Virus record (IMG/VR): IMGVR_UViG_3300010413_000069
Location: 1 to 42,784 of that record
DNA length: 42,784 nucleotides
Source: a virus
Reading direction: 5' to 3' (one strand)
Shown: in pieces, positions 3,316-42,714 of the stretch
Layout of the letters: every line of letters starts with the position of its first letter
Position numbering within the stretch: the first letter of the stretch is position 1
Position numbers and translations under genes: made by a program
The notes under the pieces: model-generated
Told to the model about the DNA's origin: nothing
The model's input: the letters and a program-made list of their open reading frames with translations, nothing else
Database searches by the model: none

Positions 3316-3666
3316 ATGGAGAGTATATTACTTACTATTAAGTCTTTGTTAGGGATTTCAAAAGAATATGATGGTTACGATCTAGATATTATTTTAGCTA
3401 TTAATACAGCCTTTACAACTTTGACTCAACTTGGCATAGGTCCTTCAGGTGGATATTCTATCGGTAGTTTGGACGATAAATGGGTTGATTTTTTTGGAGA
3501 TGTGCCTAATGCTCCAGCTATGGAAGCCATTAAAAGTTATATTTATCTTAAATCAAGGCTTTTATTTGATCCTCCAGGAAATTCATTTTTGGTAAATGCT
3601 ATTGATAATCAGTTATCCCAATTAGAGTGGCGTTTACAAGTTTTAAACGAGACTACATTAACATAA
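3316..3666 (+). CDS. Head-tail connector (gp6-like) protein
   Basis: This is a 116-residue helical protein with the hallmark segment DDKWVDFFGDVP followed by AIKSYIYLKSRLLFDPP and LEWRL, which I recognise from phage head-tail adaptor proteins of the HK97 gp6 type. It would form a ring under the portal to extend the DNA channel. The start ATG 3316 follows AAGGAG. Its place is unusual: it lies before the large terminase and portal, whereas such adaptors normally follow the capsid gene. Two other head-tail joining proteins sit at the usual place (9164-9776). Confidence 0.65.
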   Translation: MESILLTIKSLLGISKEYDGYDLDIILAINTAFTTLTQLGIGPSGGYSIGSLDDKWVDFFGDVPNAPAMEAIKSYIYLKSRLLFDPPGNSFLVNAIDNQLSQLEWRLQVLNETTLT

Positions 3667-3677
3667 GGACGGTATAT

Positions 3678-4007
3678 ATGAGTGATTTAAATGATATTTT
3701 ACAACATTATGGCGTCCTTGGTATGAAATGGGGTCGCAGAAAGAATCGTAGAACGTCTTCTGATTATAAAAAGACTCTTCCCTTAAGAAAAAAAAGCGCT
3801 AGTGAATTAAGTAATGAAGAATTGACAACGTTGAATAAACGTTTAAATCTTGAAAAACAATATAGTAGTTTAAATCCTTCTAGAGCTAAGCGAGGACAGG
3901 CTGCTGTTAAAAATGTTATGGCAGGAATTGGCGCTGTCGCGGCTACTGCCGGGGCTATTAAGGGACTAGTTGAAATCGGGAATAAATTGATGAAGGCTAA
4001 AGGATAA
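3678..4007 (+). CDS. HYG-motif small basic protein, possible capsid cargo
   Basis: This 109-residue protein starts at ATG 3678 (AAGGACGG upstream). Its N-terminus holds LQHYGVLGMKWGRRKNRR (about residues 7-24), a motif that recurs in many phage head-region proteins. The rest is basic and helical, with a Gly/Ala-rich segment (MAGIGAVAATAGAIKGLVEIG, about 82-102) that could insert in a membrane or pack against itself. The next gene starts with the same motif, so these are a tandem pair with divergent tails. A role as internal head protein or ejected protein is inferred from the motif, the composition and the position before the terminase. Confidence 0.65.
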   Translation: MSDLNDILQHYGVLGMKWGRRKNRRTSSDYKKTLPLRKKSASELSNEELTTLNKRLNLEKQYSSLNPSRAKRGQAAVKNVMAGIGAVAATAGAIKGLVEIGNKLMKAKG

Positions 4008-4010
4008 ACT

Positions 4011-4346
4011 ATGGCTAATCGATATTTAGAACATTACGGTGTTTTAGGAATGAAGTGGGGACGAAGGCGTTTAAGACAAGAAAGAGCAAGAGCTACTTTA
4101 AGAAAACGAGTTTTAACAGATAAAGATTATCGAAAAAGTATATATTTACATGATGCTGGTAAAAGCGCGGTTATTTCTGGTTTACTTACATTTGGTTTAA
4201 ACAAAGCTCTAGGTGTTTCCACAAGTTCATCAGCTAGTACGGCTGCTAAAGCTGCTGTCGCTGGCGCTGCTATATCTGCTGCATTAAATAAAATTGGTGA
4301 AATAGATTTAAGATTGATGGATGCCGCCGCAAAGAAAAAAGGATAA
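4011..4346 (+). CDS. Second HYG-motif small basic protein
   Basis: This 111-residue protein begins MANRYLEHYGVLGMKWGRRR, nearly the same first 20 residues as the previous gene product, then diverges. The first half is very rich in Arg and Lys (RQERARATLRKRVLTDKDYRK). The second half is Ala-rich and hydrophobic (TAAKAAVAGAAISAALNKIG). It begins three bases after the stop of its neighbour. Retention of only the N-terminal motif between the two suggests that the motif is a targeting or binding tag, perhaps for incorporation into the head. I know of no demonstrated function for it. Confidence 0.65.
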   Translation: MANRYLEHYGVLGMKWGRRRLRQERARATLRKRVLTDKDYRKSIYLHDAGKSAVISGLLTFGLNKALGVSTSSSASTAAKAAVAGAAISAALNKIGEIDLRLMDAAAKKKG

Positions 4347-6130: not shown

Positions 6131-7399
6131 GTGCCAGATTCATTTCTAGATAGATTAAGAAATGCTTGGAACGTTTTTCGTTATGGCGATAGAATAGTTA
6201 AATCACAAGAATTAGGACCTGGTTCTGGTTCAAGACAGGATAGATGGTTTTACTTTTTCGGAGCCGAGCGTACAATCATTTCGTCAATATTTACTAGAAT
6301 AGGTATCGATGTTGCAGCAGTTCCTATTCGACATGTACGTACAGATGCAAATAATAATTTTAAAGAAGTAGTTCAATCCGGACTAAATAATTGTCTTACG
6401 TTAGAAGCGAATATTGACCAATCGGGAAGAGATTTTATACAAGATGTAGTCATGTCCTTATGCGATGAAGGCGCGGTTGCTATTGTTCCTGTAGATACAA
6501 CATTAAATCCTAATGTTTCAGGTTCTTACGATATCATAACGATGCGCACTGGCAAAATTACACAGTGGTTTCCAGAACACGTAGAAGTTGATTTGTATAA
6601 TCAAGCTATAGGACAAAAGCAACGAATAACTTTATCAAAAAGAATGGTTGCTATCGTTTCTAATCCTCTTTATGACGTTATGAATGGTCCTAATTCCACA
6701 TTAAAACGTCTCACAACAAAACTTAATCTTTTAGACGTTATAGACAATCAAAGTGGTTCTGGAAAATTAGATTTAATTGTACAGTTACCGTATGTAATAA
6801 AAACAGCTGCAAGACAGGCACAAGCTGATTTAAGAAAGGCAGACATTGAAACGCAATTACAAGATTCTAAGTATGGTATTGCTTATATTGATGGTACAGA
6901 ACGTATTACTCAATTAAATAGACCTGCTGAGAATAATTTAATGGCGCAAATCGAATACTTAACTAGAATGCTATATAGCCAGTTGGGTTTAACCGAGGAA
7001 GTTTTTAATGGTACTGCCGATGAAGCAGCTATGATAAATTATTATAATCGTACTGTTGAGCCTATTCTTGGAGCTATTACTGATAGTATGAAAAGGGTGT
7101 TTTTGACTAAAACTGCTAGATCACAACATCAATCTATTATGGCTATTAGAGATCCTTTTAGGCTTGCGCCAGTGTCTCAAATAGCTGATATCGCAGACAA
7201 GTTTACAAGAAATGAAATCATGTCTTCGAATGAAATACGATCTGTTGTTGGTTTGCAGCCGAGTGAAGATCCGAAAGCTGATGAATTAAGAAATAAGAAT
7301 ATTAATCAGCCAGATGCTGAAACTCCTAACAAGGATCTAGTCAAAGAACCCGTCGTAAAAATTCAAAATGGAAGGAGTAATGGAAATTATGCCGAATAA
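6131..7399 (+). CDS. Portal protein
   Basis: This 422-residue protein starts with GTG at 6131, chosen because AGGAAAGGAGG lies nine bases upstream; a nearby ATG at 6124 is out of frame and closes quickly. Sequence features fit an HK97-type portal: RTIISSIFTRIGIDVAAVPI near the start, EVDLYNQAIGQKQRITL, LLDVIDNQSGSGKLDLIVQLP, a helical stem (LMAQIEYLTRMLYSQLGLTEEVFNGTADE) and a C-terminal crown with SNEIRSVVGLQPSEDPKAD. It would form the dodecameric ring through which DNA enters and leaves the head. The last bases overlap the capsid fusion gene. Confidence 0.9.
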   Translation: MPDSFLDRLRNAWNVFRYGDRIVKSQELGPGSGSRQDRWFYFFGAERTIISSIFTRIGIDVAAVPIRHVRTDANNNFKEVVQSGLNNCLTLEANIDQSGRDFIQDVVMSLCDEGAVAIVPVDTTLNPNVSGSYDIITMRTGKITQWFPEHVEVDLYNQAIGQKQRITLSKRMVAIVSNPLYDVMNGPNSTLKRLTTKLNLLDVIDNQSGSGKLDLIVQLPYVIKTAARQAQADLRKADIETQLQDSKYGIAYIDGTERITQLNRPAENNLMAQIEYLTRMLYSQLGLTEEVFNGTADEAAMINYYNRTVEPILGAITDSMKRVFLTKTARSQHQSIMAIRDPFRLAPVSQIADIADKFTRNEIMSSNEIRSVVGLQPSEDPKADELRNKNINQPDAETPNKDLVKEPVVKIQNGRSNGNYAE

Positions 7400-9149
7400 A
7401 GATTATGATTTTGGCGGTTACGCTACCAAAGCCAATGTCAAATGCACTGATGGACGTGTTATTCTTAAAGATGCATTTCTCGAAAACGATGGTATGACCG
7501 TCCCTCTAGTATGGCAGCATATGCATGACGATCCCAATAATGTTCTTGGGCATGCTTTATTGGAAAATCGTGAAGATGGCGTTTATGCATATTGCAAGTT
7601 TAATGATACTCCGGCAGGACTGACTGCAAAGAAACTTGTAGCTCATGGCGATGTTGCTTGGCTTTCTATTTGGGCTAATAGTCTTATTGAAAAGTCGAAG
7701 CGAGTTGCTCATGGTGTTATTCGTGAGGTAAGCCTTGTTCTGTCAGGGGCAAATCCAGGTGCAAGCATTGATAATATTGCTTTCGAGCATTCAGATGGAG
7801 AGAAAACCGTTATGGATGACGAAGCTATTATTACTAGTGGTGAAGATCTGGAATTTCAGGAAGAAGATATTGAAGAACCTGAAGAAGAACTCGAAGAGGA
7901 AGAAGTTATTGAACATGCAGATTCCGATCGGACTATTCAGGAAGTATTCGATAGTTTAGATGAAGAACAGAAGACTGCTGTCTATGCTATTGTTGGAGCT
8001 ATTATTGAAGAGCAGGGTGGCAGCCTCGAACAATCAAACATTCATGAAGGAGAAGTAGAGGTTATGAAAACTAATGTTTTTGATGGCTCCGCAATGGAGA
8101 AAAAAGATCGTATTCATTTGACCCATGATCAGGTTAAGAGTATTTTTGAAGTTGCTCAGAAGCGTGGATCGTTGCGGGAATCTGTAATTGAGCATGCTGG
8201 TACTTATGGTATTGATAATATCGATTATTTGTTTCCAGATGCGCAAGCTTTGACTCGGGAGCCTTCTCTGATTGCTCGCAGGATGGAGTGGGTTTCTGGT
8301 GTTATTAACGGCACTCGTCATAGTCCATTTTCGCGGATTAAGAGTGTTCATGCTGATATTACTGTTGAAACTGCTCGTGCTTTGGGTTATGTTACTGGTA
8401 ATCTAAAGAAAGAGGAAGTTTTCGGTTTGCTGCGCAGGACGACTACGCCGACCACGATCTACAAGAAACAGAAACTTGATCGTGATGATATTCTCGACAT
8501 CACTGAGTTGGATGTAGTTGCCTGGTTGAAAGCAGAAATGCGGATGATGTTGGATGAGGAAATTGCTCGTGCAATTCTTGTTGGCGATGGGCGTGATCCA
8601 GTCGCAGAGGTTGATGATAAAATCGATGAAACCTCAATTCGTCCGATTTGGAAAGATGCTAATATGTATGCGCATCATCATTTTCTAGCTGCTGCAGTAA
8701 CTGATGCTGCTGTTATGGATGAGGCTGTAAAGGCTCGTATTGCATATCGTGGTTCTGGTTCACCAACGATGTTTGTTGGTCCTACAATTCTTACGAACTG
8801 GCTTCTTCTGAAGGATTTGGATGGTCGTCGTTTGTACCCAACTACAGCTGAACTAGCCTCCGCTATGCGTGTTTCGAGCATCGTTGAAGTTCCGCTACTC
8901 GATTCATTGGAAAGGGATGTTGATCCTGCGTCTCCAGACGGAGGGGGTACTCCTGCTGCGCATGATCTTCTGTGTTTGATTGTTAATCTTCGTGATTATA
9001 CGATGGGCGCAGATAAGGGTGGTCAGGTGTCCATGTTTGATGATTTCGATATCGATTACAACCAGTACAAGTACCTGATGGAGACTCGTTTCTCTGGGGC
9101 TTTGTATGTTCCGAAATCAGCTCTGGTTATCGAACGAGCTCAGGCATAA
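7389..9149 (+). CDS. Fused prohead protease - scaffold - major capsid protein
   Basis: This 586-residue polyprotein joins three head functions. Residues 1-150 are an HK97-type (S78) prohead protease with candidate catalytic His in VWQHMHDDP (about 44) and Ser in REVSLVLSGANPGA (about 115). Residues 150-225 form a very acidic linker (EEDIEEPEEELEEEEVIEH) that could act as scaffold. Residues about 226-586 are an HK97-fold capsid protein (LFPDAQALTREP, GRRLYPTTAELASAMRVSSIVEVP, YLMETRFSGALYVPKSALVI). The start at 7389 has GGAG 11 bases upstream; ATG 7380 is too close to it. An internal ATG at 8064 with AAGGAG upstream falls at the linker/capsid border and may yield capsid protein alone. Codon use is richer in CGT/CGG Arg codons than the tail genes, fitting high expression. 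Confidence 0.92.
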   Translation: MPNKDYDFGGYATKANVKCTDGRVILKDAFLENDGMTVPLVWQHMHDDPNNVLGHALLENREDGVYAYCKFNDTPAGLTAKKLVAHGDVAWLSIWANSLIEKSKRVAHGVIREVSLVLSGANPGASIDNIAFEHSDGEKTVMDDEAIITSGEDLEFQEEDIEEPEEELEEEEVIEHADSDRTIQEVFDSLDEEQKTAVYAIVGAIIEEQGGSLEQSNIHEGEVEVMKTNVFDGSAMEKKDRIHLTHDQVKSIFEVAQKRGSLRESVIEHAGTYGIDNIDYLFPDAQALTREPSLIARRMEWVSGVINGTRHSPFSRIKSVHADITVETARALGYVTGNLKKEEVFGLLRRTTTPTTIYKKQKLDRDDILDITELDVVAWLKAEMRMMLDEEIARAILVGDGRDPVAEVDDKIDETSIRPIWKDANMYAHHHFLAAAVTDAAVMDEAVKARIAYRGSGSPTMFVGPTILTNWLLLKDLDGRRLYPTTAELASAMRVSSIVEVPLLDSLERDVDPASPDGGGTPAAHDLLCLIVNLRDYTMGADKGGQVSMFDDFDIDYNQYKYLMETRFSGALYVPKSALVIERAQA

Positions 9150-10927: not shown

Positions 10928-13738
10928 ATGAGCCAGTACGCTAGACCAGATTCAGATACATCTTTAGGCGGCTGGTCAAATCCAACATGGTCGGTAATAG
11001 ACGAACCGGTCGCTAGTTATGATGGGACTTATTCTTCATCTCCAAATAAGTCTGATGGTACTTATGTTGGGACGTTATCGAATATAACAGATCCACAAGT
11101 AGCGACCGGTCATGTTTTAAGAATTCGCGGATATATCCAGTCAACTGGATTTTCATATTTTTATGTTCATCTTTATTGTGGTGCAACCCTTATAAAGACC
11201 TGGCAACCTGGATTTACTGATAGTGCAGCCACATATACGTATACTTTATCCGAATCAGAAGCAAATGCTATAACTGATTATTCTGATCTGATTCTTCATC
11301 TGCAATTTGATTATTCTTCTGGTTCTCAAGGTAGAGGATATGTCGATTGCTTTGAATTCGAGGTTCCTGATGCGGGAACTACTTATAATCTTACAGCAGC
11401 TGATATTACTTCTGGAATTGCTGTTTTAGAAGCACCTACTATAACTCAAACTCATGTTCTTACAGCAGCTGATATTACTTCTGGAATTGCTGTTCTAGAA
11501 GCACCTACTATAACTCAAACTCATGTTCTTACAGCAGCTGATATTACTTCTGGAATTGCTGTTTTAGAAGCACCTACTTTAACGAGTGGTCAAACTCACA
11601 ATCTTACTGCTAGCGACATCGTTACTGAACCAGCAGAATTAGAAGCACCAACTATAAGTCAAACTCATGTACTTATAGCAGCTGATATTACTTCTGGTAT
11701 TGCTGTACTTGATGCTCCAACTTTAACTAGTCAATCTCCTCCAACAGTATTAGATGATTTTAATAGAGCAAATGGTCAACTTGGATCAAATTGGTATACT
11801 AATAATCCTGCTAGTTGGGAAGTTTATAACCAGCAAGCACGTTATGTTGGAAGTGGGTATGGCTGGACGGTATGGAATGTTGAGAAATTTGGAACGTATC
11901 AGGAAGTAAGTATTAAAGTTATAAATATAGATACTTCGTCCTCGTTCGAATACGATCTAATTTTAAAAGTTCAATCTTTGGTTAGCTCATCACCAATGAT
12001 TGAAATTTATCATGATCCAAGGTCATCAACAGTTGAAGTTTGGGTTTATACAGGGATAACGTGGTTAAAAGCTGGAGATACAGCTACAGGAATTAGTTTT
12101 TCTAATGGAGATATATTTAAAGCTACAGCAGATGAAAATGGAGACGTTGTTGTTTACAAAAATCAAAATATTATATTAGAGGCGAATGTAGCTTCAATAT
12201 GGTCATCTTATTACAATTTAGATGGTTATATTGGAGTCTTTATGCATGATAATGGATCGTCTCCTTATAATACTTGGGATGATTTTGATGGTGGAACTGT
12301 AAGTGCTGGAGATGATTTAACAGCAGAAGATATTATTACAGATCCAGTAATTCTTGGTTCTCCAACTATAGCACAAACACATAATTTATCTTCAGAAGAT
12401 ATTGTTACTCCTGCAATTGAATTAGAAGCTTCTACAATAGGTCAAACACATGTACTTACATCCGCTGATCTAGTTACTCCTTCAGCAGAGTTAGAAACTC
12501 CTATAATAGGAAATATACATGCCTTGGCGGCTGTTGATATAGTAACTCCAGAAGCTGTTCTAGAAGCTCCTACAATAGGTCAAACGCACGTTCTAACAGC
12601 GAATAGTATTGAAACTAATCCTTCTGAGTTAGAACAACCAGGAATCGGACAAAGTCACGTTCTAACAGCTCTTGAAATAGTAACTGGTGCTGTTATATTT
12701 GAGGCTCCAACTTTAACGGAGACTCATAGTTTAACAGCAAATGATATTACTACTCAACCTGCTGAATTAGAAGCTCCTAGTTTGGAAGCAATAGATCAAT
12801 TAACGGCTGTAAGTATAATTACAGAGCCTGTTATATTTGATCAACCAACTTTAGGACAAACTCATATATTATCATCAGCGGATATTGTTAGTGATTCTGC
12901 TGTATTGGGCGCACCAAGTTTAGTCGCAACATCTGAGTTAATAGCTGAAGACATTGTAACGGAACCTGTTATATTTGAGGCTCCATCAATTAGTCAGACT
13001 CATGTATTAATCTCTGTAGATATTACTACAGATTCGGTTATATTTGAGGCTCCTTCAATTGGTCAGACTCATGTATTAAGTTCTGTTGATATTATCACAG
13101 AAACCGCTACTCTTGATGCTCCATTATTAAGTGAATTACCTCCATTAGAAGCTAATGATATCACTACGGAACCAGTTATATTTGGTCAACCAGATATCGG
13201 TCAGACTCATGAATTGGTTTCCGCAAATGTTACTACAGAAGCTGGTATATTTGAATCGCCTAACTTGGGTCAAACTCATATATTAGCGTCTGTTGACATT
13301 ACAAGCGGGATAGCATTTATTGAGGCGCCAACTCTTTCTGAGATACTTCCAGACGAGTTAGTTGCTGAAGATATTGTAACTCCTGCGGTTGTAATTGGAT
13401 CTCCATCGATAGGTCAAACGCATGTTTTAATTAGTAATAATATTGCAACTGATATTCCAGTATTTGATGTTCCAGTAATAGGTCAAATTCATGCGTTAAC
13501 TATATCAGACTTACTTTCTGATCCTGCTATATTTGATCAACCAACTTTAGGACAAACACATATTTTAATGAGTATAGATATTGTTACTCCTTCTGTTGTT
13601 CTTGGATCTCCTTATGTATCGGTAATAATAATTCCACCAAGACCTGATAGAATTTATAAAGCAGATAGAAATACAACTTATACTATTAGAGAAGGAGATC
13701 GTATAGTGGTCGTATCTGAAAGGAAGAATAAAATATGA
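10928..13738 (+). CDS. Large repeat adhesin with jelly-roll and concanavalin-like domains
   Basis: This 936-residue protein starts at ATG 10928 (TTTAGGAG upstream). Residues about 1-152 look like a carbohydrate-binding-like beta-sandwich (RPDSDTSLGGWSNPTWSVID...). I count 24 repeats of about 20-23 residues with the core LTAxDIxTxPAxLExPTIGQTH: five before and 19 after a central domain. That domain (about 272-457) begins VLDDFNRANGQLGSNW and resembles concanavalin-like lectins. The C-terminus is basic (RIYKADRNTTYTIREGDRIV). The repeats probably make an extended stalk holding the sugar-binding domain away from the tail. Position before the chaperone and tape-measure genes suggests a tube-attached or baseplate adhesin. 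Repeats 1-3 are almost identical in DNA, so repeat number may vary. Confidence 0.75.
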   Translation: MSQYARPDSDTSLGGWSNPTWSVIDEPVASYDGTYSSSPNKSDGTYVGTLSNITDPQVATGHVLRIRGYIQSTGFSYFYVHLYCGATLIKTWQPGFTDSAATYTYTLSESEANAITDYSDLILHLQFDYSSGSQGRGYVDCFEFEVPDAGTTYNLTAADITSGIAVLEAPTITQTHVLTAADITSGIAVLEAPTITQTHVLTAADITSGIAVLEAPTLTSGQTHNLTASDIVTEPAELEAPTISQTHVLIAADITSGIAVLDAPTLTSQSPPTVLDDFNRANGQLGSNWYTNNPASWEVYNQQARYVGSGYGWTVWNVEKFGTYQEVSIKVINIDTSSSFEYDLILKVQSLVSSSPMIEIYHDPRSSTVEVWVYTGITWLKAGDTATGISFSNGDIFKATADENGDVVVYKNQNIILEANVASIWSSYYNLDGYIGVFMHDNGSSPYNTWDDFDGGTVSAGDDLTAEDIITDPVILGSPTIAQTHNLSSEDIVTPAIELEASTIGQTHVLTSADLVTPSAELETPIIGNIHALAAVDIVTPEAVLEAPTIGQTHVLTANSIETNPSELEQPGIGQSHVLTALEIVTGAVIFEAPTLTETHSLTANDITTQPAELEAPSLEAIDQLTAVSIITEPVIFDQPTLGQTHILSSADIVSDSAVLGAPSLVATSELIAEDIVTEPVIFEAPSISQTHVLISVDITTDSVIFEAPSIGQTHVLSSVDIITETATLDAPLLSELPPLEANDITTEPVIFGQPDIGQTHELVSANVTTEAGIFESPNLGQTHILASVDITSGIAFIEAPTLSEILPDELVAEDIVTPAVVIGSPSIGQTHVLISNNIATDIPVFDVPVIGQIHALTISDLLSDPAIFDQPTLGQTHILMSIDIVTPSVVLGSPYVSVIIIPPRPDRIYKADRNTTYTIREGDRIVVVSERKNKI
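11390..11580 (+). repeat. 69-bp tandem DNA repeat inside the adhesin gene
   Basis: Unit starts at 11390, 11459 and 11528 have a period of exactly 69 bases (23 codons). Units 1 and 2 differ at one position (a synonymous T/C in a Leu codon); unit 3 is cut where the sequence diverges after about 50 bases. The other repeats of the gene are similar only as protein. This marks recent duplication and a likely site of slippage. Confidence 0.92.
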
Positions 13739-23669: not shown

Positions 23670-23718
23670 ATTTCCTTAAGTCGCATGAAATACAGACATT
23701 ATAATGAAGGGAGATGAT

Positions 23719-24033: not shown

Positions 24034-24058
24034 TCGCATAAAAAACATAGTATATAAT
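24034..24058 (+). promoter_or_regulatory. Phage promoter copy 1 (CGCA, 18 bases, TATAAT)
   Basis: TCGCATAAAAAACATAG lies before TATAAT at 24053-24058, with the C of CGC exactly 18 bases before the T of the -10 box. It is the least canonical of six copies (CGCA instead of CGCG, TATAATGA downstream). It directs transcription of the XRE gene. Confidence 0.75.
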
Positions 24059-24072
24059 GAAAGGAGAATACT

Positions 24073-24287: not shown

Positions 24288-24312
24288 TCGCGTGAAAAAC
24301 ACAGCATATAAT
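24288..24312 (+). promoter_or_regulatory. Phage promoter copy 2
   Basis: TCGCGTGAAAAACACAG precedes TATAAT (24307-24312) and AGAA. CGCG starts 18 bases before the -10 box. It lies two bases after the T tract of the preceding terminator and drives the gene at 24353. Confidence 0.85.
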
Positions 24313-24352
24313 AGAATAAACTACTATATTTAATTCAAAAGGGAGATGCGAA

Positions 24353-24615: not shown

Positions 24616-24649
24616 AAAGAGAGAGCTTAGGAGGCTCTTCTCTTTTTTT
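24616..24649 (+). terminator. Terminator after small membrane protein gene
   Basis: AAAGAGAGAGC (24616-24626) pairs with GCTCTTCTCTTT (from 24634) with one inserted base, followed by seven T (24643-24649). The T tract runs directly into promoter copy 3. Confidence 0.85.
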
Positions 24650-24673
24650 CGCGTAGAAATCCCATCCTATAAT
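24649..24673 (+). promoter_or_regulatory. Phage promoter copy 3
   Basis: TCGCGTAGAAATCCCATCC precedes TATAAT (24668-24673) and AGAA, again with the 18-base offset. The next start codon is 180 bases away, so its first product is a long untranslated RNA. Confidence 0.85.
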
Positions 24674-24679
24674 AGAAGC

Positions 24680-26664: not shown

Positions 26665-26689
26665 TCGCGTCGGAATCATGTTGTATAAT
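26665..26689 (+). promoter_or_regulatory. Phage promoter copy 4
   Basis: TCGCGTCGGAATCATGTTG precedes TATAAT (26684-26689) and AGAAACC. CGCG begins 18 bases before the -10 box. It directs transcription of the 64-residue membrane protein gene. Confidence 0.85.
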
Positions 26690-26726
26690 AGAAACCTACT
26701 ATATTATTCGAAAGGAGAAAAAAATC

Positions 26727-27180: not shown

Positions 27181-27205
27181 TCGCGAGAGAAACATCCCTT
27201 ATAAT
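27181..27205 (+). promoter_or_regulatory. Phage promoter copy 5
   Basis: TCGCGAGAGAAACATCCC precedes TATAAT (27200-27205) and AGAAACC, with the same 18-base offset. The downstream AGAAACCTA is almost identical to copy 4. Confidence 0.87.
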
Positions 27206-27236
27206 AGAAACCTATATTTTAAAAGGAGATGTTAAA

Positions 27237-29907: not shown

Positions 29908-30147
29908 ATGGCAAAGGATTTTACAGAACAAGCAAAAGAATTTATTTTAAGGAAAACGAATCAAAAAACCTTGCTTAAGGCATTTAATAGCTTGGACCAA
30001 ATGACCTTTGGTGATGAGATGTTCTCTAAGCTCGTTGCCGAAGCTATGAGTGAAGCATACGAAGAAGGAAAAAAAGTTGGTGCAGCTTATGCTGCTAAGA
30101 AAACCAGAAAAAAGGGAGATGAGGTAGATGAATCAGGAACTAGTTAG
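29908..30147 (+). CDS. Hypothetical helical protein
   Basis: This 79-residue protein starts at ATG 29908 (AATGGAGGA upstream), directly after the HicA-like gene. It is amphipathic and helical throughout (FTEQAKEFILRKTNQKTLLKAFNSLDQM, MFSKLVAEAMSEAYEEGKKVGAAYAAKKTRKK). It has no membrane segment. It overlaps the next gene by 20 bases. No family is recognised. Confidence 0.63.
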   Translation: MAKDFTEQAKEFILRKTNQKTLLKAFNSLDQMTFGDEMFSKLVAEAMSEAYEEGKKVGAAYAAKKTRKKGDEVDESGTS

Positions 30148-31018
30148 GTCCGCTTATCGGACTAAGATTTTGGCACAAAAATATAGCCCTGAGCTCTTGC
30201 TTGGGGCTAGTTTATTTGGATTCTTCTCAACTATATTTTTGACTTGGAAAGCGGCTAACGAATATCCAAAATGGAAATCAAATTACTATCTTACTCTAGC
30301 TATGATAGAGGACGCTAAAAATCTGAGTGTTGGGACAGATAGTGAATATCCAGATGAAATGTATAATAAAGACATTCGGGAAGCTCAGATTACTTACGCG
30401 ATTGGATTGCTTAAAACTTTCGGTCCGGTTATATTAATGAGCGGTTTATCTATCGGCGCAGTTCTCGGTTCTCATAATATTATATCGAGTCGTAATGCGG
30501 CATTGATTGGTGCTTATAAGCTTCTTGATGAAGGCTTCAAAGAATATCGTAAGCGCGTTATTGATGATGCCGGAGAAGATAAAGATCGAGAATATCGTTA
30601 TGGCATGAAAAAGGAAACAAGTAAAAAACGAATCAAAGAACTCTCGGAAAATAATGAGGATCTTATGGCTCCGTGGGAGCATAGTATTTATGCCCGCTGG
30701 TTCGATGAGAAATCTCCTTATTATAAAAAAACAGATGAAATGAATTTGTTTTTCTTGAGAGGTCAGCAGAATTATGCAAATGAATTACTCTCAGAACGAG
30801 GTCATATTTTCTTAAATGAAGTTTATGATTCGCTCGGAATTGAACGAACAGCTGAAGGTGCTCTTGTTGGCTGGGTTCTTGGAAACGGCGACGGATACAT
30901 TAAATTCGGAATTACAGATCCTGGAAATGAAAGTGTTTGGACTATTGATGGGAAGGCTGTTCCGATCTTATTAGATTTCAATGTTGATGGAGTAATTTGG
31001 GATCTTTTACCTCGATAG
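30128..31018 (+). CDS. DUF6353-like membrane protein, paralog 2
   Basis: This 296-residue protein starts at ATG 30128 after AAGGGAGATGAGG. Membrane helices lie at about 22-42 (ELLLGASLFGFFSTIFLTWK) and 94-115 (LLKTFGPVILMSGLSIGAVL). The motif LGSHNIISSRNAALIGAYKLLDEGFKEYRKRVI is shared with the 25911 protein, as is the late YDSLGIERTAEGALVGW. A longer charged insert (EDKDREYRYGMKKETSKKRIKELSENNED) separates the halves. Paralogy is seen directly; family membership (DUF6353) is from memory. Presence of two copies suggests hetero-oligomers or specialised roles. Confidence 0.75.
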   Translation: MNQELVRSAYRTKILAQKYSPELLLGASLFGFFSTIFLTWKAANEYPKWKSNYYLTLAMIEDAKNLSVGTDSEYPDEMYNKDIREAQITYAIGLLKTFGPVILMSGLSIGAVLGSHNIISSRNAALIGAYKLLDEGFKEYRKRVIDDAGEDKDREYRYGMKKETSKKRIKELSENNEDLMAPWEHSIYARWFDEKSPYYKKTDEMNLFFLRGQQNYANELLSERGHIFLNEVYDSLGIERTAEGALVGWVLGNGDGYIKFGITDPGNESVWTIDGKAVPILLDFNVDGVIWDLLPR

Positions 31019-32985: not shown

Positions 32986-32987
32986 TT

Positions 32988-33066
32988 CGGGAGGTCAGCC
33001 CCGCCGATTCAGGGTGCTGCGAATCGACCGTGAGAAACCACCTAAGTGCGGGTTTGCCGGTTCCCA
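32988..33066 (+). other. GC-rich pseudoknot-like element before the origin
   Basis: These 79 bases are far richer in G and C than their surroundings and have no ORF. Pairings seen: CGATTC (33005-33010) with GAATCG (33021-33026); CCCGC (33000-33004) with GCGGG (33048-33052); GGT (32993-32995) with ACC (33027-33029); alternatively AGGT (32992-32995) with ACCT (33040-33043); and GGGA (32989-32992) with TCCC (33062-33065). The AGGT/ACCT and CCCGC/GCGGG pairs cross, making a pseudoknot. The order resembles small self-cleaving RNAs but no known class fits fully. It may be a structured RNA or the origin-proximal leader. Confidence 0.4.
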
Positions 33067-33089
33067 ATAATGAAAAAACCGGCGTTTTT
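33056..33089 (+). terminator. Terminator at end of early operon
   Basis: GCCGGTT (33056-33062) pairs perfectly with AACCGGC (33077-33083), followed by GTTTTT. It keeps early transcription from entering the origin. Confidence 0.82.
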
Positions 33090-33092
33090 ATC

Positions 33093-33340
33093 AAAACACT
33101 GTTACACTTTTGAAGGTCATTTTCGAAAATGTAACTGTTTTGTAACTGTTTTGTAACAGTGTTTTTGGCTATTTTTTAGCTTTTTTCGGATTTTTTACGC
33201 CTAGAACTTGTTAAAAATTGCTAAAAAATCAATCACTGTTACACTTTTACACTTTTTTCCCTATAAAGTAATAAATTTAAAAAAAATACATATTTTAAAA
33301 AAGTTTTACTATTTTTTTTGTAAAAGTGTAACAGTGTTTT
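33093..33340 (+). other. Probable replication origin with iterons and AT-rich region
   Basis: No gene lies between 32986 and 33358; this is the longest untranslated stretch. A 19-base sequence, AAAACACTGTTACACTTTT (33093-33111), recurs as a perfect inverted copy at 33322-33340. A direct partial copy (CACTGTTACACTTTT) lies at 33234-33248 and an inverted partial copy at 33153-33166. GTAACTGTTTT occurs twice in tandem (33131-33141, 33142-33152). Between 33261 and 33320 the DNA is almost pure A and T, a likely unwinding region. The replicase gene follows directly. Iterons plus unwinding region plus helicase-primase gene is the classic layout of a phage origin. Confidence 0.75.
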
Positions 33341-33358
33341 AAATCTTGAAAGGAGGGC

Positions 33359-37609: not shown

Positions 37610-38786
37610 TTTATATCCGTATCAGAAAGAAGCTGTTAGCCAATTAAAAACCGGCTCCATCTTATGCGGTGGAGTCGGTTCTGGCAAAACTCGTACATCG
37701 TTAGCTTATTATTTTGAAAATGAGCGTCCAAAAGATTTGTATGTTATTACAACTGCGAAGAAAAGAGATACTCTTGACTGGGAACGTGAGAGCGCGTTGT
37801 TTATGTTAACTAAAGATCGAACTGGTATAGATGGTGTACAGTTAACAGTAGATTCCTGGAATAATATAAAGAAATATATAGATGTTAAAAAAGCTTTCTT
37901 TATATTTGATGAACAAAGAGTTATAGGATCTGGCGCATGGGTTAAATCCTTTTTAAAAATAGTAAAAGAAAATAATTGGATTCTTTTATCAGCTACTCCA
38001 GGTGATACATGGATGGACTATATTCCTGTATTTATAGCAAATGGATTTTATAAAAATAGAACCCAATTTATTCAAAGACACGTGGTTTATTATAGTTACT
38101 TAAAATTTCCGAAAATTAAAAGATATTTAGAAGAAGATTATCTTAATAAATTAAAGAATCATATTTTAGTAACTATGGATTATATAAGACCTACTAAAGT
38201 TATTACTAATTATATTAATGTTGAATTTGATAAAGATAAATATAATTTAGTAATTAAAAAGAGATGGAATCCATATGATAATAAGCCAATAAGAAATTCG
38301 AGCCAATATTTTTATTTAATGAGAAGAGTTGTAAATAGTGATAACAGTAGAATGGCTATTATATTTGATTTAATTAAAAAGCATAGCAAACTTATTGTGT
38401 TTTATAATTTTGATTATGAATTGGATATATTAAGAAAATTTGAAAAAGATTTTAATATTCCGTTTGCAGAATATAATGGACATAAGCATGAAGCAATTCC
38501 GAATGAACATTCCTGGTTATATGCTGTTCAATATTTAGCAGGATCTGAAAGCTGGAATTGTACAGAAACTAATGTTATTGCTTTTTACTCTCTTAATTAT
38601 TCCTATAGAATAACATCTCAAGCTAGTGGTCGGATAGATAGATTAAATACACCTTTTACAAAATTATATTATTATATGCTAATTTCTAATTCTTCTATAG
38701 ATAAAGCAATATTATTAGCATTAAAAAATAAGAAAAATTTTAATGAAAAGGATTTTTTATCCACGCGCGAGAAACATAGACTATAA
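37569..38786 (+). CDS. SF2 DNA helicase
   Basis: This protein has up to 405 residues. Motifs in order: LYPYQKEAV (Q-motif-like), GGVGSGKTRTS (Walker A, about 33-43), FIFDEQRVIG (Walker B variant DEQR, about 111-120), LLSATPGDTW (motif III, about 138-147) and QASGRIDRL (motif VI, about 350-358). This is a SNF2/DEAD-like helicase that would remodel forks or unwind DNA. The start is uncertain: no ATG lies near the beginning, and GTG 37569 or TTG 37581, both inside the SSB-like gene, lack a good binding site, so coupling is likely. Its last codons contain the sixth copy of the phage promoter. Confidence 0.87.
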   Translation: MVHLLITTDLHLVNLYPYQKEAVSQLKTGSILCGGVGSGKTRTSLAYYFENERPKDLYVITTAKKRDTLDWERESALFMLTKDRTGIDGVQLTVDSWNNIKKYIDVKKAFFIFDEQRVIGSGAWVKSFLKIVKENNWILLSATPGDTWMDYIPVFIANGFYKNRTQFIQRHVVYYSYLKFPKIKRYLEEDYLNKLKNHILVTMDYIRPTKVITNYINVEFDKDKYNLVIKKRWNPYDNKPIRNSSQYFYLMRRVVNSDNSRMAIIFDLIKKHSKLIVFYNFDYELDILRKFEKDFNIPFAEYNGHKHEAIPNEHSWLYAVQYLAGSESWNCTETNVIAFYSLNYSYRITSQASGRIDRLNTPFTKLYYYMLISNSSIDKAILLALKNKKNFNEKDFLSTREKHRL

Positions 38787-38787
38787 T
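38763..38787 (+). promoter_or_regulatory. Phage promoter copy 6 inside helicase gene end
   Basis: ACGCGCGAGAAACATAGAC precedes TATAAT (38782-38787) and AGAGG. CGCG at 38764 keeps the 18-base offset. The helicase stop TAA (38784-38786) is part of the -10 box. Confidence 0.85.
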
Positions 38788-38792
38788 AGAGG

Positions 38793-38838
38793 AGAGGATC
38801 GTTCCCTGCCCCCACCAGGGACACCTCTTCTTTTTTTT
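38793..38838 (+). ncRNA. Short hairpin RNA / attenuator after promoter 6
   Basis: Transcription from promoter 6 would start near 38794 and at once meet a hairpin: TCCCTG (38803-38808) with CAGGGA (38816-38821), loop CCCCCAC, and an outer AGAGG (38793-38797) with CCTCT (38824-38828), then TTC and eight T. The expected product is a 45-base RNA with a C-rich loop. It may attenuate the nuclease and polymerase genes downstream, or act itself by pairing with G-rich sites such as GGAGG. Confidence 0.65.
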
Positions 38839-38851
38839 GAAGGGAGAAAAC

Positions 38852-39169
38852 ATGTTAGAAAGTACTTATCAAAGAAAATTGATTAAAAAGATTCAAGATA
38901 GATATCCAGGCGCTGTTATTCTTAAAACAGATCCGGCATATATTCAAGGTTTCCCCGATTGGCTAATTTTAAATGCTTATAATTGGGCAGCTTTAGACGC
39001 GAAATCACATGAAAAAGCTAATCACGAACCCAACCAGGATTATTGGATTAATGTTCTTGATGATATGTCTTTTGCTAGTTTTGTTTATCCAGAAAATGAA
39101 GGAGAAGTGTTAGATGGACTTCAACAAGCACTTAGGTCTAGTCGGTCAACACGGCTTCTTAAGTGGTAG
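38852..39169 (+). CDS. VRR-NUC nuclease
   Basis: This 105-residue protein starts at ATG 38852 after GAAGGGAGAA. It has the stand-alone VRR-NUC pattern: E in the first helix (LESTYQRKLIKKIQDRYPGAVI), GFPDWLIL (about 31-38), AALDAKSHE (about 45-53) and a late PNQDYWINVLDDMSFASFVYPEN. The PD...(D/E)xK core is visible (PDW, LDAK). Such enzymes cut or resolve branched DNA during phage replication. It overlaps the next nuclease gene by 56 bases. Confidence 0.85.
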   Translation: MLESTYQRKLIKKIQDRYPGAVILKTDPAYIQGFPDWLILNAYNWAALDAKSHEKANHEPNQDYWINVLDDMSFASFVYPENEGEVLDGLQQALRSSRSTRLLKW

Positions 39170-39683
39170 TAAATACCACTGGATAAATTATGATGAGGAA
39201 AAACTTGCTAATGTATATACTAGATTTTTAGCAGTTGAAAAAGGTGTTCAGTTGCATGAATTAGCTAGACAATGTATATCATTAGGAATAAAACTTCCAA
39301 GATCTAGAGCATCGTTAAATCAATATGTTAATGATGCTATAGGATTTCGTATGGTTCCAGAACAAATACTTTTTTATTCTTATAATGCTTTTGGAACAGC
39401 AGATGCTATCAGCTTTAGAAAAAATCTTTTAAGAATTCATGATTTGAAAACTGGAACTATTAGAACTTCTATTCATCAATTAGAAGTATATGCTGCTCTT
39501 TTTTGTTTAGAATATGAATATAAACCAACAGCTATCGATATGGAATTAAGAATTTATCAATATGATGAAATTTTAATTCATGAGCCATATACAGAAGATA
39601 TTCAAGGCATAATGGATAAAATAATAATATTTGATAAACAAATTGATTCTATAAAATCTAAGGAGGAGTTATGGCTCGGCTAA
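39114..39683 (+). CDS. PD-(D/E)XK nuclease, RecB/Cas4-like
   Basis: This 189-residue protein starts at ATG 39114 after GAAGGAGAAG, within the VRR-NUC gene. The motif order fits a RecB-like exonuclease: YTRFLAVEKGVQLHELARQCI (His/Glu early), AFGTADAISFRKNLLRIHDLKTG (Asp, then DLKTG, about 103-125) and SIHQLEVYAALFCLEY (Gln-Tyr motif, about 131-146). It lacks the Cas4 cysteines, so no iron-sulphur cluster is expected. It may process ends for recombination-dependent replication along with the VRR-NUC enzyme. Confidence 0.83.
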   Translation: MDFNKHLGLVGQHGFLSGSKYHWINYDEEKLANVYTRFLAVEKGVQLHELARQCISLGIKLPRSRASLNQYVNDAIGFRMVPEQILFYSYNAFGTADAISFRKNLLRIHDLKTGTIRTSIHQLEVYAALFCLEYEYKPTAIDMELRIYQYDEILIHEPYTEDIQGIMDKIIIFDKQIDSIKSKEELWLG

Positions 39684-42397
39684 TTGAACATTATGGCACT
39701 CCTCGTAGATCGGGTCGTTATCCATGGGGATCTGGTAAAGATCCTTATCAAAGAAATACTAGTTTTTTAGGATATGTTGCTCAACTAAAAAAAGAAGGCT
39801 TGTCAGATGCTGAAATAGCTAAAGGCATGGGAATGACTCGAAACGAATTGCAAACTAGAAGGTCTATCGCTATAGCAGAAAATAGAGAAGCAGATGCTGC
39901 TCTTGCTCGTAGATTAAAAGATAAAGGATATTCTACAACTGCTATAGCAGAGCGAATGGGAAAAAATGAATCGTCCATAAGAGCTTTATTAGATCCTTCA
40001 TTAAGAGAAAGTGCTCAAATTCTAACAGCAACAAAAGCAACTTTAAAAGATTCTGTAGATTCTAGAGGTTTGCTTGATATTGGTGTTGGAGTTGAAAATC
40101 ATATGGGAATTAGCAGAACTAAGCTTTTGACAGCAGTACAGGCTCTTAAAGATGAAGGATATACTGTACATGAAGTAAACATAGAACAAGCTGGTGTTCC
40201 AGGAAAATATACTACAATTAAAGTATTAGCACCACCTGGAACTACATCTTTAGAAGCATTTAAGAATAGGGAGCAAATACATCTTGTGAATACTTATTCC
40301 GAAGACGGCGGGAGATCGTATTTTGGATTAGAGAAACCAGTAGATATAGATAGTAATAGAATTTTAGTTAAATATATAGAAACTGGTGGCGCTGAAAAAG
40401 ATGGTGTTATAGAATTACGTCGTGGCGTAGATGAGATTTCATTAGGCGAAAGTAAATATGCTCAAGTAAGAATTGCTGTTGATGGAACTCATTACATGAA
40501 AGGAATGGCTATGTATGCTGATAGTATTCCTGAGGGATATGATATTATTTATAACACTAAAAAACATAAAGGTGCTACTAAAGATGAAGTTTTTAAAAAA
40601 ATGGAATCTGATCCAGATAATCCTTTTGGAGCAGTTGTTAGACAAAAGCACTATATAGATAAAAATGGAAAAGAACGTTTATCAGCTTTAAATATGGTCG
40701 GTTATAAAGAAGGTGCTGGTGAAGAAGGATCTTGGGATGAATGGTCTAGAAATTTATCATCTCAAATTTTATCAAAACAAACACCAGCTTTAGCAAGAAA
40801 ACAATTAGGATTAGCTCTTAAATTAAGAGAAGAAGAACTAAATGAAATTTTATCAATTACTAATCCTGCAGTAAGAAAAGCACTTCTCGAACCATATGCA
40901 GATGGAGCTGATTCTGATGCTGTTCATTTAAAAGCTGCTGCTTTACCAAGGCAAAATACTCATGTTCTTTTACCAATAACTTCTTTAAAAGAAAACGAAG
41001 TTTACGCTCCAAAATATGATGATGGAGAAAATGTAGTATTACTTCGTCATCCGCATGGCGGAATATTTGAAATACCAGAATTAAAAGTTAATAATAGAAA
41101 TCCTCAAGCTAGAAGATTAATTGGTAATGCAGATGATGCTGTAGGAATTAATCCAAAAGTTGCAGCTAAATTATCCGGAGCAGATTTTGATGGCGATACT
41201 GTTATTGTAATACCTAATAAAAATAGATATATAAAAACAGCCCCTTCTTTAGCAGCATTAAAAGATTTTGATCCAATAACTGCATATCCTAAAGTTCCTG
41301 GTATGAAAGTTATGTCTCCTCAAAATAAACAGTTAAAGATGGGTGATATATCTAATCTTATTACAGATATGACTATCAGAGGGGCTAATCATGATGAGAT
41401 AGCAAGAGCTGTTCGTCATTCTATGGTTGTTATTGATTCTGAAAAACATAAATTAAATTATAAACAATCATATCTTGATAATAATATAGCAGAATTAAAA
41501 GCTAAATATCAAGGCGGTCCCACTAAAGGCGCGTCTACTTTAATTTCTAAAGCAGGATCTAAGTTATATGTTGATGAAAGAAAAGAAGGAAAGATTATAA
41601 CAGATCCTGTTACTGGTAAAAAAAGAAGAGTTTATATAAATCCAAAGACTGGCGAAAAACTTTACGAAGAAACAGGTCGAACATACAAAGAAAGAAAAAA
41701 AGTAATAAATCCTGCTACTGGTAAAGTTACCTATGTAGAAACTGGTAGAATACTTAAACGAAAAACTAAGACTACTAAAGGTGCAGAAGTTAAAGATGCA
41801 CATAAGCTTTCTTCTGGTACTACAATGGAATCTATATACGCTGAGCATGCTAATGCATTGAAATCATTAGCTAATAAAGCTAGATTAGAGATGCTTAGGA
41901 CTGGTAATGTTAAGTATTCTAGATCTGCTAACCAAACGTATTCTAAAGAAGTAGCTTCATTAAGTAAGAAGCTAGGGGCTGCTATTAAAAACAAACCCCT
42001 TGAAAGACAAGCACAGTTGTTAGCTAATAAGATCATAGCTGCTAAAAGAAAAGCAAACCCCGGCATGGATCCAGATCAACTTAAAAAAGTTAAAGCTCAA
42101 GCTTTAGATGAAGCAAGAACAAGATTTAAAGCTAATAAACCTGATATACCTATTACAGATAGAGAGTGGGAGGCTATACAATCAGGCGCTATAACTAATA
42201 ATAAACTAACCCAGATCCTTAGAAATGCTGATCTAGATGCTCTTAGACAAAGAGCTACTCCTCGTTATAGTAAAGGACTATCACCTGCTAGAGCATCAAG
42301 AGCTAAGGCTATGTTAAGTCTTGGCTATACACAAGCTGAAGTAGCTAAGGCATTGGGTGTATCAGCATCGACCATAGCTAAAGCTACTAATAGTTAA
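39671..42397 (+). CDS. Candidate single-chain two-barrel RNA polymerase, HYG-tagged
   Basis: This 908-residue protein starts at ATG 39671 after TAAGGAGGAG. The N-terminal motif IEHYGTPRRSGRYPWGSGKD recalls the HYG tag of the 3678 and 4011 products. Two helix-turn-helix units follow (LSDAEIAKGMGMTRNELQ about 40-57; YSTTAIAERMGKNESSIRA about 83-101). Residues about 275-300 (KGMAMYADSIPEGYDIIYNT) could be the first barrel. The second barrel is clear: VVLLRHPHGGIFEI (about 453-466) corresponds to the beta-prime NRAP region and VAAKLSGADFDGDTVIVI (about 496-513) to the catalytic NADFDGD loop, followed by SPQNKQLKMGD. Residues about 645-700 repeat INPxTGKxxYxETGR, and an HTH closes the chain (GYTQAEVAKALGVSASTIAK). 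Confidence 0.72.
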   Translation: MARLIEHYGTPRRSGRYPWGSGKDPYQRNTSFLGYVAQLKKEGLSDAEIAKGMGMTRNELQTRRSIAIAENREADAALARRLKDKGYSTTAIAERMGKNESSIRALLDPSLRESAQILTATKATLKDSVDSRGLLDIGVGVENHMGISRTKLLTAVQALKDEGYTVHEVNIEQAGVPGKYTTIKVLAPPGTTSLEAFKNREQIHLVNTYSEDGGRSYFGLEKPVDIDSNRILVKYIETGGAEKDGVIELRRGVDEISLGESKYAQVRIAVDGTHYMKGMAMYADSIPEGYDIIYNTKKHKGATKDEVFKKMESDPDNPFGAVVRQKHYIDKNGKERLSALNMVGYKEGAGEEGSWDEWSRNLSSQILSKQTPALARKQLGLALKLREEELNEILSITNPAVRKALLEPYADGADSDAVHLKAAALPRQNTHVLLPITSLKENEVYAPKYDDGENVVLLRHPHGGIFEIPELKVNNRNPQARRLIGNADDAVGINPKVAAKLSGADFDGDTVIVIPNKNRYIKTAPSLAALKDFDPITAYPKVPGMKVMSPQNKQLKMGDISNLITDMTIRGANHDEIARAVRHSMVVIDSEKHKLNYKQSYLDNNIAELKAKYQGGPTKGASTLISKAGSKLYVDERKEGKIITDPVTGKKRRVYINPKTGEKLYEETGRTYKERKKVINPATGKVTYVETGRILKRKTKTTKGAEVKDAHKLSSGTTMESIYAEHANALKSLANKARLEMLRTGNVKYSRSANQTYSKEVASLSKKLGAAIKNKPLERQAQLLANKIIAAKRKANPGMDPDQLKKVKAQALDEARTRFKANKPDIPITDREWEAIQSGAITNNKLTQILRNADLDALRQRATPRYSKGLSPARASRAKAMLSLGYTQAEVAKALGVSASTIAKATNS

Positions 42398-42408
42398 AGG
42401 ATTGTATT

Positions 42409-42714
42409 ATGGATACTATTGATTCTAGTAATGAAGAAGAAGATAATAATAATAGTTCTAATTGTATGCTTAGTACAATAGACAATCCTTACAATCCTTA
42501 TACTAACTATGAGGAATGGTATGAGTTTGATACTGCACATGGTTACAATTCAGCCAGCTTTCTTGCAAGAATTGTTCAAAGTTCAGATGAATTAAGTGAA
42601 GCCGATCAGTCCCTCGCTATAGAGGAAGGCATAGACCAAATCGTTTCACTAAATGTTCTAGGTATTTATATAAAAGTTACCCCAACTAATTTTAAAAAAA
42701 GGAGTAACATTTAG
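42409..42714 (+). CDS. Conserved small phage protein
   Basis: This 101-residue protein starts at ATG 42409 after AAAGGA. An acidic, Asn/Ser-rich N-terminus (DSSNEEEDNNNSSN) precedes NPYTNYEEWYEFDTAHGYNSASFLARIVQSSDELSEADQSLAIEEGIDQIVSLNVLGIYIKV, a helical domain I recognise as common in phages, usually near the packaging or late genes. It is the last gene before the window end, directly after the polymerase candidate. Function is unknown; a regulator of late genes or a small packaging partner is possible. Confidence 0.72.
   Translation: MDTIDSSNEEEDNNNSSNCMLSTIDNPYNPYTNYEEWYEFDTAHGYNSASFLARIVQSSDELSEADQSLAIEEGIDQIVSLNVLGIYIKVTPTNFKKRSNI

Follow-up and report, generated by a model that had tools for sequence, protein, structure and literature searches.

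Crass-like phages, jumbo phages and a single Thermus phage have so far been the sources of two-barrel RNA polymerases packaged in the virion; that of the crAss-like phage phi14:2, gp66, is a chain of about 2,170 residues. The Thermus siphophage P23-45 encodes two single-chain two-barrel polymerases with their own promoter motifs, gp96 (vRNAP) and gp64 (nvRNAP) (PMC10770324), and YonO of the Gram-positive phage SPbeta is a single-chain DNA-dependent polymerase of about 100 kDa that transcribes late genes (PMC5467207). Here we analyse IMG/VR record IMGVR_UViG_3300010413_000069, a stretch of 42,784 nucleotides of viral DNA (the window, meaning all of it), and a 908-residue open reading frame (ORF) at its right end. 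Our proposal is that the ORF probably specifies a single-chain DNA-dependent RNA polymerase of the two-barrel kind that travels in the virion and has a promoter of its own. What is new here is the putative promoter motif, which recurs across the whole family.

Family, active site and predicted fold

The gene, its active-site blocks and its helix-turn-helix (HTH) units are as follows.
39671..42397, + strand: gene for the predicted single-chain two-barrel RNA polymerase, 908 aa, PHROG 4291 (profile, alignment, predicted fold)
39773..39862, + strand: HTH unit 1, residues 35-64 (PHROG HTH match, model)
39896..39991, + strand: HTH unit 2, residues 76-107 (Pfam HTH_36 at 78-107, model)
40457..40558, + strand: beta-like barrel block, residues 263-296, YAQVRIxVDGTHYMKGMAMY..PxGxDI..N, with K277 at 40499-40501 (invariant columns)
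41033..41212, + strand: beta-prime-like active-site block, VVLLRHPHG (455-463) to LSGADFDGDTVIVI (501-514), with the Asp triad 505/507/509
42284..42391, + strand: C-terminal HTH unit, residues 872-907 (Pfam HTH_23, E 2.5e-9, at 882-904, model)

The ORF starts with ATG and runs as a single chain where a first-pass annotation, made from the letters alone, had placed it. The PHROG 4291 profile matches it over its full length (1212.9 bits, residues 5-906), and tblastn finds relatives in 251 phage records (Arthrobacter 95, Gordonia 55, Streptomyces 54, Lactococcus 13, plus others). These are annotated as 'HTH DNA-binding protein' or 'RNA-dependent RNA polymerase', with 'putative RNA polymerase' in FP_oengus and 'HTH DNA-binding domain protein' as the usual annotation of PHROG 4291 homologues. 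In the records and papers within reach the family has been given labels only, and neither a mechanism nor a tag or promoter is described for it. Relatives also occur on contigs from many Lachnospiraceae and Oscillospiraceae genomes, which are probably prophages. One 62%-identical relative lies on an 11-kb contig (L283) assigned to a Candidatus Bathyarchaeum bin; this is probably a mistake of binning, failing which the host would be archaeal.

Conservation was judged from an alignment of 24 sequences, in which the relatives are 44-62% identical to the window polymerase. VVLLRHPHG and LSGADFDGDTVIVI lie 46 residues apart, start to start, at the spacing first claimed. R459, P461, H462, D505, D507, G508 and D509 are invariant, which argues that the block is no chance match. 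It contains the DxDGD metal-binding motif of the two-barrel superfamily, and it is here that a local alignment with P23-45 gp64 matches. A single relative (L009) has LSGADADGD in place of LSGADFDGD; the differing middle residue is not an aspartate. K277, within THYMKGMAMY, is likewise invariant. The block around it, absent from the first-pass annotation, we take by eye to correspond to the lysine-bearing stretch of the beta subunit, HGNKG...EDMP...DI.LNPLG; if these residues are equivalent, the block supports the presence of a second, beta-like barrel. HTH units had been claimed for both ends of the chain, and the profile matches listed above recover them there.

The two-barrel fold, until then read from motifs, was examined by structure prediction. 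An AlphaFold2 model built on the 24-sequence alignment (mean pLDDT, the predicted local distance difference test, 80; predicted template modelling score, pTM, 0.61) was compared with the PDB by Foldseek. QDE-1 structures rank first (E 1.9e-9, probability 1.00), followed by P74-26 gp62, a Thermus phage non-virion polymerase (E 1e-7), and at lower rank by plant RDR2 (E 1.3e-6), large subunits of cellular polymerases and crAss gp66 (E 0.011). The viral structure library agrees, matching P23-45 gp64 (protein A7XX94, 616 aa) at E 6e-6. The predicted model thus supports membership of the single-chain two-barrel RNA polymerases. Searches of PDB sequences with the single protein (phmmer) and with the family profile returned no polymerase, only HTH and designed proteins, so the relationship to solved structures shows at the level of the fold only. 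The Pfam match to RNA-dependent RNA polymerase (RdRP) is weak (E 9e-4), and hhalign against a single YonO sequence, an uninformative comparison, detected no homology, only an unrelated 19-residue match.

The promoter motif and the polymerase operon

A rigid motif, TCGC[AG]-N6-ACA-N5-TATAATGA, occurs upstream of small non-structural genes and also heads the polymerase operon. In the window this repeated element lies in the gaps between small genes after the tail module, and once ahead of the operon.
23681..23709, + strand: motif copy (matrix scan)
24034..24062, + strand: motif copy (matrix scan)
24288..24316, + strand: motif copy (matrix scan)
24649..24677, + strand: motif copy (matrix scan)
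26665..26693, + strand: weaker motif copy (motif scan)
27181..27209, + strand: motif copy (matrix scan)
38763..38791, + strand: motif of the polymerase operon, ACGCGCGAGAAACATAGACTATAATAGAG (matrix/pattern scan)

The same element precedes small non-structural genes in phages 1706, Pepy6 and RosaAsantewaa (Rosa), and in it CGC lies 18 nt upstream of the TATAAT box. Training sites for a 29-nt matrix were chosen by eye from such gaps; leaving out the genome being scanned and independent tests guard against this choice. Genomes outside the training set gave 7 (Mudcat), 10 (Kenosha), 14 (Count) and 4 (FP_oengus) sites where 0.05-0.15 were expected, almost every one of them on the gene strand. Of seven control genomes, six gave none and the last, GTE7, gives two promoter-like matches. 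In the reverse test, the most telling of these, TCGCRN6ACAN5TATAATGA was scanned across 2.9 million viral contigs and found at least 120 stretches; PHROG 4291 is encoded by 30 of the 32 long contigs found, among the matches listed, by the promoter pattern alone. With one extra spacing base the pattern occurs in 15 stretches of the whole collection, one match each, and the polymerase in none of 10 contigs tested.

Among the 253 unique sites, all 65 loci with multiple hits have them on one strand, and a Shine-Dalgarno sequence with a start codon follows within 83 nt in 85% of sites against 27% at random. No TTGACA-like -35 box is conserved 16-18 nt before TATAAT in these sites. In Faecalibacterium phage FP_oengus, CTTTATG replaces TATAATG while CGCG and the spacing are kept (14 gene-strand sites), and recognition of such a box by host sigma-A would be unexpected. 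For these two reasons a canonical sigma-A promoter is an unlikely explanation of the motif. The element is the same in phages of Lactococcus, Rhodococcus, Streptomyces, Arthrobacter, Gordonia and Microbacterium. The first-pass annotation had proposed that the polymerase brings its own promoter-recognition parts; the family-wide motif lends this proposal independent support, with direct binding presumed.

A VRR-NUC nuclease, an exonuclease, the polymerase and an acidic ORF follow the last motif site in the window, Pepy6, Rosa, Mudcat and Count, where this site is 0.9-1.0 kb upstream of the start of the polymerase; FP_oengus has one site 0.9 kb upstream of the polymerase.
38788..38838, + strand: strong hairpin with T-run, terminator/attenuator-like, directly after the operon promoter (-20.3 kcal/mol, z -3.2)
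38837..39169, + strand: VRR-NUC-type nuclease ORF, first gene of the operon (gene order as Rosa gp52, Count gp130, Mudcat gp92)
39114..39683, + strand: RecB/Cas4-type exonuclease ORF (gene order as in Rosa, Count, Mudcat), overlapping the polymerase start by 13 nt
42409..42714, + strand: small acidic ORF immediately 3' of the polymerase (similar ORF in 160/177 loci)

The position of the hairpin and T-run suggests attenuation, and the operon promoter may be under attenuation or autoregulation. In RosaAsantewaa the same operon promoter sits within an inverted repeat. The acidic ORF (consensus mLTTxDNPxdPf..W..fD..kGYxtcxyLaRia..AIDeI, net charge about -8) is a possible partner, inhibitor or packaging chaperone of the polymerase.

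N-terminal tags and proposed packaging

A HYG motif had been noticed at the polymerase N-terminus and in two head-module ORFs. It is present in all three, and the head-module pair both match DUF7211.
39689..39736, + strand: N-terminal tag A of the polymerase (HYGTPRRSGRYPWGSG, residues 7-22), predicted disordered, nearly invariant
3627..4007, + strand: head-module ORF with tag B (DUF7211, HYGVLGMKWG; Pfam match)
4011..4346, + strand: second head-module ORF with tag B (DUF7211; Pfam match)

Tag A has the form HYG...SGRYPWGSG. Polymerase residues 1-29 are predicted to be disordered, yet G9, S14, G15, R16, G20 and G22 are invariant. Among the loci examined 220 of 229 polymerase ORFs carry the tag; of the remaining nine, contig ends truncate six, two are split ORFs whose upstream part bears tag A, and the N-terminus of the last is divergent or frameshifted. 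Part of this locus set was selected by the tag pattern, and the loci found by polymerase sequence agree. Tag B, HYGVLGMKWG, is the 25-residue Pfam family DUF7211 (PF23847), which matches all 134 tag-B ORFs scanned, a set chosen by the motif. In the window the two tag-B ORFs sit between a connector-like ORF and the large terminase; at the same genomic place, orf7 of phage 1706 has two tag-B copies and is deposited as structural, and Pepy6 has eight tag-B ORFs. Further domains on tag-B ORFs are 2H phosphoesterase (5), papain-fold glutamine deamidase (4), GNAT acetyltransferase (2) and ADP-ribosyltransferase (1). Such DUF7211-tagged fusions, among them L280:10645-12273 and L200:2268-3641, are candidate ejected effectors, the 2H ones possibly serving counter-defence.

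DUF7211 is absent from the 25 best Pfam matches of the polymerase, whose tag is a distinct variant (SGRYPWGSG); the start L-x-H-Y-G is common to both. A home-made tag-B hidden Markov model (HMM) reaches 24 polymerase N-termini (E 0.02-0.75 among 40,748 ORFs), and tag A also occurs on a few non-polymerase ORFs adjoining tag-B ORFs (L276), so tags A and B are probably variants of one signal, as judged from sequence. Chance sharing of the tag was considered and is ruled out by the tag-A counts and the HMM matches. Carriers of tag B and of the polymerase have nearly equal tallies in the phage collection (Arthrobacter 95, Gordonia 55, Streptomyces 54). In IMG/VR, the polymerase family is encoded on 25 of 33 long tag-B contigs, and tag B on 32 of 40 polymerase contigs; the 8 of 33 tag-B and 2 of 32 promoter contigs lacking the polymerase are not counted as true absences, since these contigs may be incomplete. 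The string HYGVLGMKWG and DUF7211 with related terms returned nothing relevant from the open-licence literature.

The polymerase homologue of Lactococcus phage 1706, orf75, bears the deposited label 'structural protein' despite its place at the extreme right of the genome, well outside the head-tail block. The same label is given to orf62 and orf71, small ORFs outside that block, a pattern in the deposited record which suggests that the 1706 labels came from virion proteomics. The annotators of Rhodococcus phage ReqiPepy6 cite the 1706 label for their homologue. The earlier claim of a packaged polymerase is therefore strengthened by the orf75 label and by a tag common to virion-module proteins; for the phage of the window, we infer that the N-terminal tag routes the polymerase into the particle.

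Proposed mechanism, alternatives and known systems

We propose that tag A would bring the polymerase into the particle together with the other tagged head-module proteins, and that the enzyme would be ejected along with the phage DNA. It would then bind the TCGC[AG]-N6-ACA-N5-TATAATG promoters via its built-in HTH units and transcribe the small non-structural genes first. Since one motif copy precedes the nuclease, exonuclease, polymerase and acidic-ORF operon, the polymerase would also promote the making of new copies of itself, to be packaged into progeny. The opening steps of infection would not depend on the host polymerase. What we infer here is the enzyme's activity, its packaging in the phage of the window, its ejection, its direct recognition of the promoter and the early timing. 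Wider still is the suggestion that this branch of Gram-positive siphophages loads, via HYG tags A and B, the polymerase and a changeable set of effectors (acetyltransferases, 2H phosphoesterases, papain-fold and ADP-ribosyltransferase domains), and that the ejected polymerase alone reads the host-independent CGC[AG]-N6-ACA-N5-TATAATG; we regard this as evenly poised.

Several points weigh against a virion-carried polymerase with its own promoter. The 1706 evidence is a deposited label whose experimental basis is deduced. Against solved structures the model reaches TM-scores of only about 0.3, and its overall arrangement is uncertain (pTM 0.61), so superfamily membership is supported and the detailed model is not. 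YonO, the nearest characterised functional relative, serves late genes (PMC5467207). The carriers form one broad lineage, and the linkage of promoter and polymerase could be co-inheritance. Co-inheritance might account for the linkage by itself, but not for the constant geometry that a non-coding element retains in phages whose hosts differ so much; a conserved phage factor of some kind must be reading it. The HTH-bearing polymerase is the best candidate, with the acidic ORF as main alternative or partner. The -10-like TATAAT could instead be read by host polymerase with sigma-A and a phage activator such as the acidic ORF, leaving the HTH polymerase to work elsewhere (late genes, replication priming). 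The 3' half of the motif is indeed a perfect sigma-A -10 box in most phages, and the acidic ORF holds its position almost as consistently as the polymerase does. We nevertheless consider this unlikely given the unconserved -35 region, the recurrence of the element in phages of six host genera, and FP_oengus, where CTTTATG is no -10 box and CGCG and spacing persist.

A related alternative keeps the enzyme and removes it from the virion: it would be made after infection from host-transcribed mRNA, the tag would serve assembly or localisation, and the association with 1706 particles would be incidental. YonO and gp64 are such non-virion enzymes (PMC5467207, PMC10770324), and the gene adjoins replication and recombination genes outside the head module. 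The structural label of the 1706 homologue and a disordered, nearly invariant tag common to head-module proteins make this, in our judgement, quite unlikely. That the protein is a genuine RdRP or primase-like enzyme, as the PHROG/RefSeq label has it, draws on the weak Pfam match (E 9e-4) and on the nearest solved fold, that of the RNA-interference polymerase QDE-1, whose structures include RNA and DNA templates; three DNA-binding HTH units, double-stranded DNA phages and a linked DNA promoter motif render it very improbable. Least probable is a catalytically dead relative acting as an HTH DNA-binding virion protein, as the usual annotation might imply, since the Asp triad, K277, R459 and P461 are invariant across the alignment.

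Elsewhere in the window, 7368-9149 is one ORF fusing prohead protease and major capsid protein, as in related actinophages, and 10928-13738 encodes a 936-aa protein of repeated segments (THVLTAADIxxxxAVLEAPTI) with no convincing Pfam match. A DUF6353 protein is encoded at 30128-31018; three DUF6353 genes lie in the early region of FP_oengus, which is rich in promoters. The AT-rich gap at 32986-33358, before the primase/polymerase gene, holds repeats CTGTTACACTTTT/TGTAACAGTG and is a candidate replication origin.

If the virion-carried polymerase is real, packaged two-barrel enzymes would extend to a large culturable group, the phages of Arthrobacter, Gordonia, Streptomyces, Microbacterium, Rhodococcus, Lactococcus and Faecalibacterium. 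A named promoter makes promoter finding by a one-piece two-barrel enzyme testable in vitro. The tag would predict virion cargo among uncharacterised phage proteins and offers a hypothesis for the function of DUF7211.

Among known systems, phi14:2 gp66 is likewise a two-barrel single chain and is packaged in the virion, with a weak fold match (E 0.011); it is not known to bear a HYG tag. P23-45 gp96 is fused to the tape measure, whereas the window polymerase is a separate tagged protein with HTH units, and P74-26 gp62 is a strong fold match. YonO resembles the window polymerase in size (about 100 kDa), single chain and Gram-positive phage setting, and differs by its late-gene role. QDE-1 of Neurospora, the best solved fold match, differs as a eukaryotic RNA-interference enzyme. 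From 1706 orf75 and the PHROG 4291 proteins of actinophages and FP_oengus there is no essential difference: family, gene order, tag A and HTH ends are the same.

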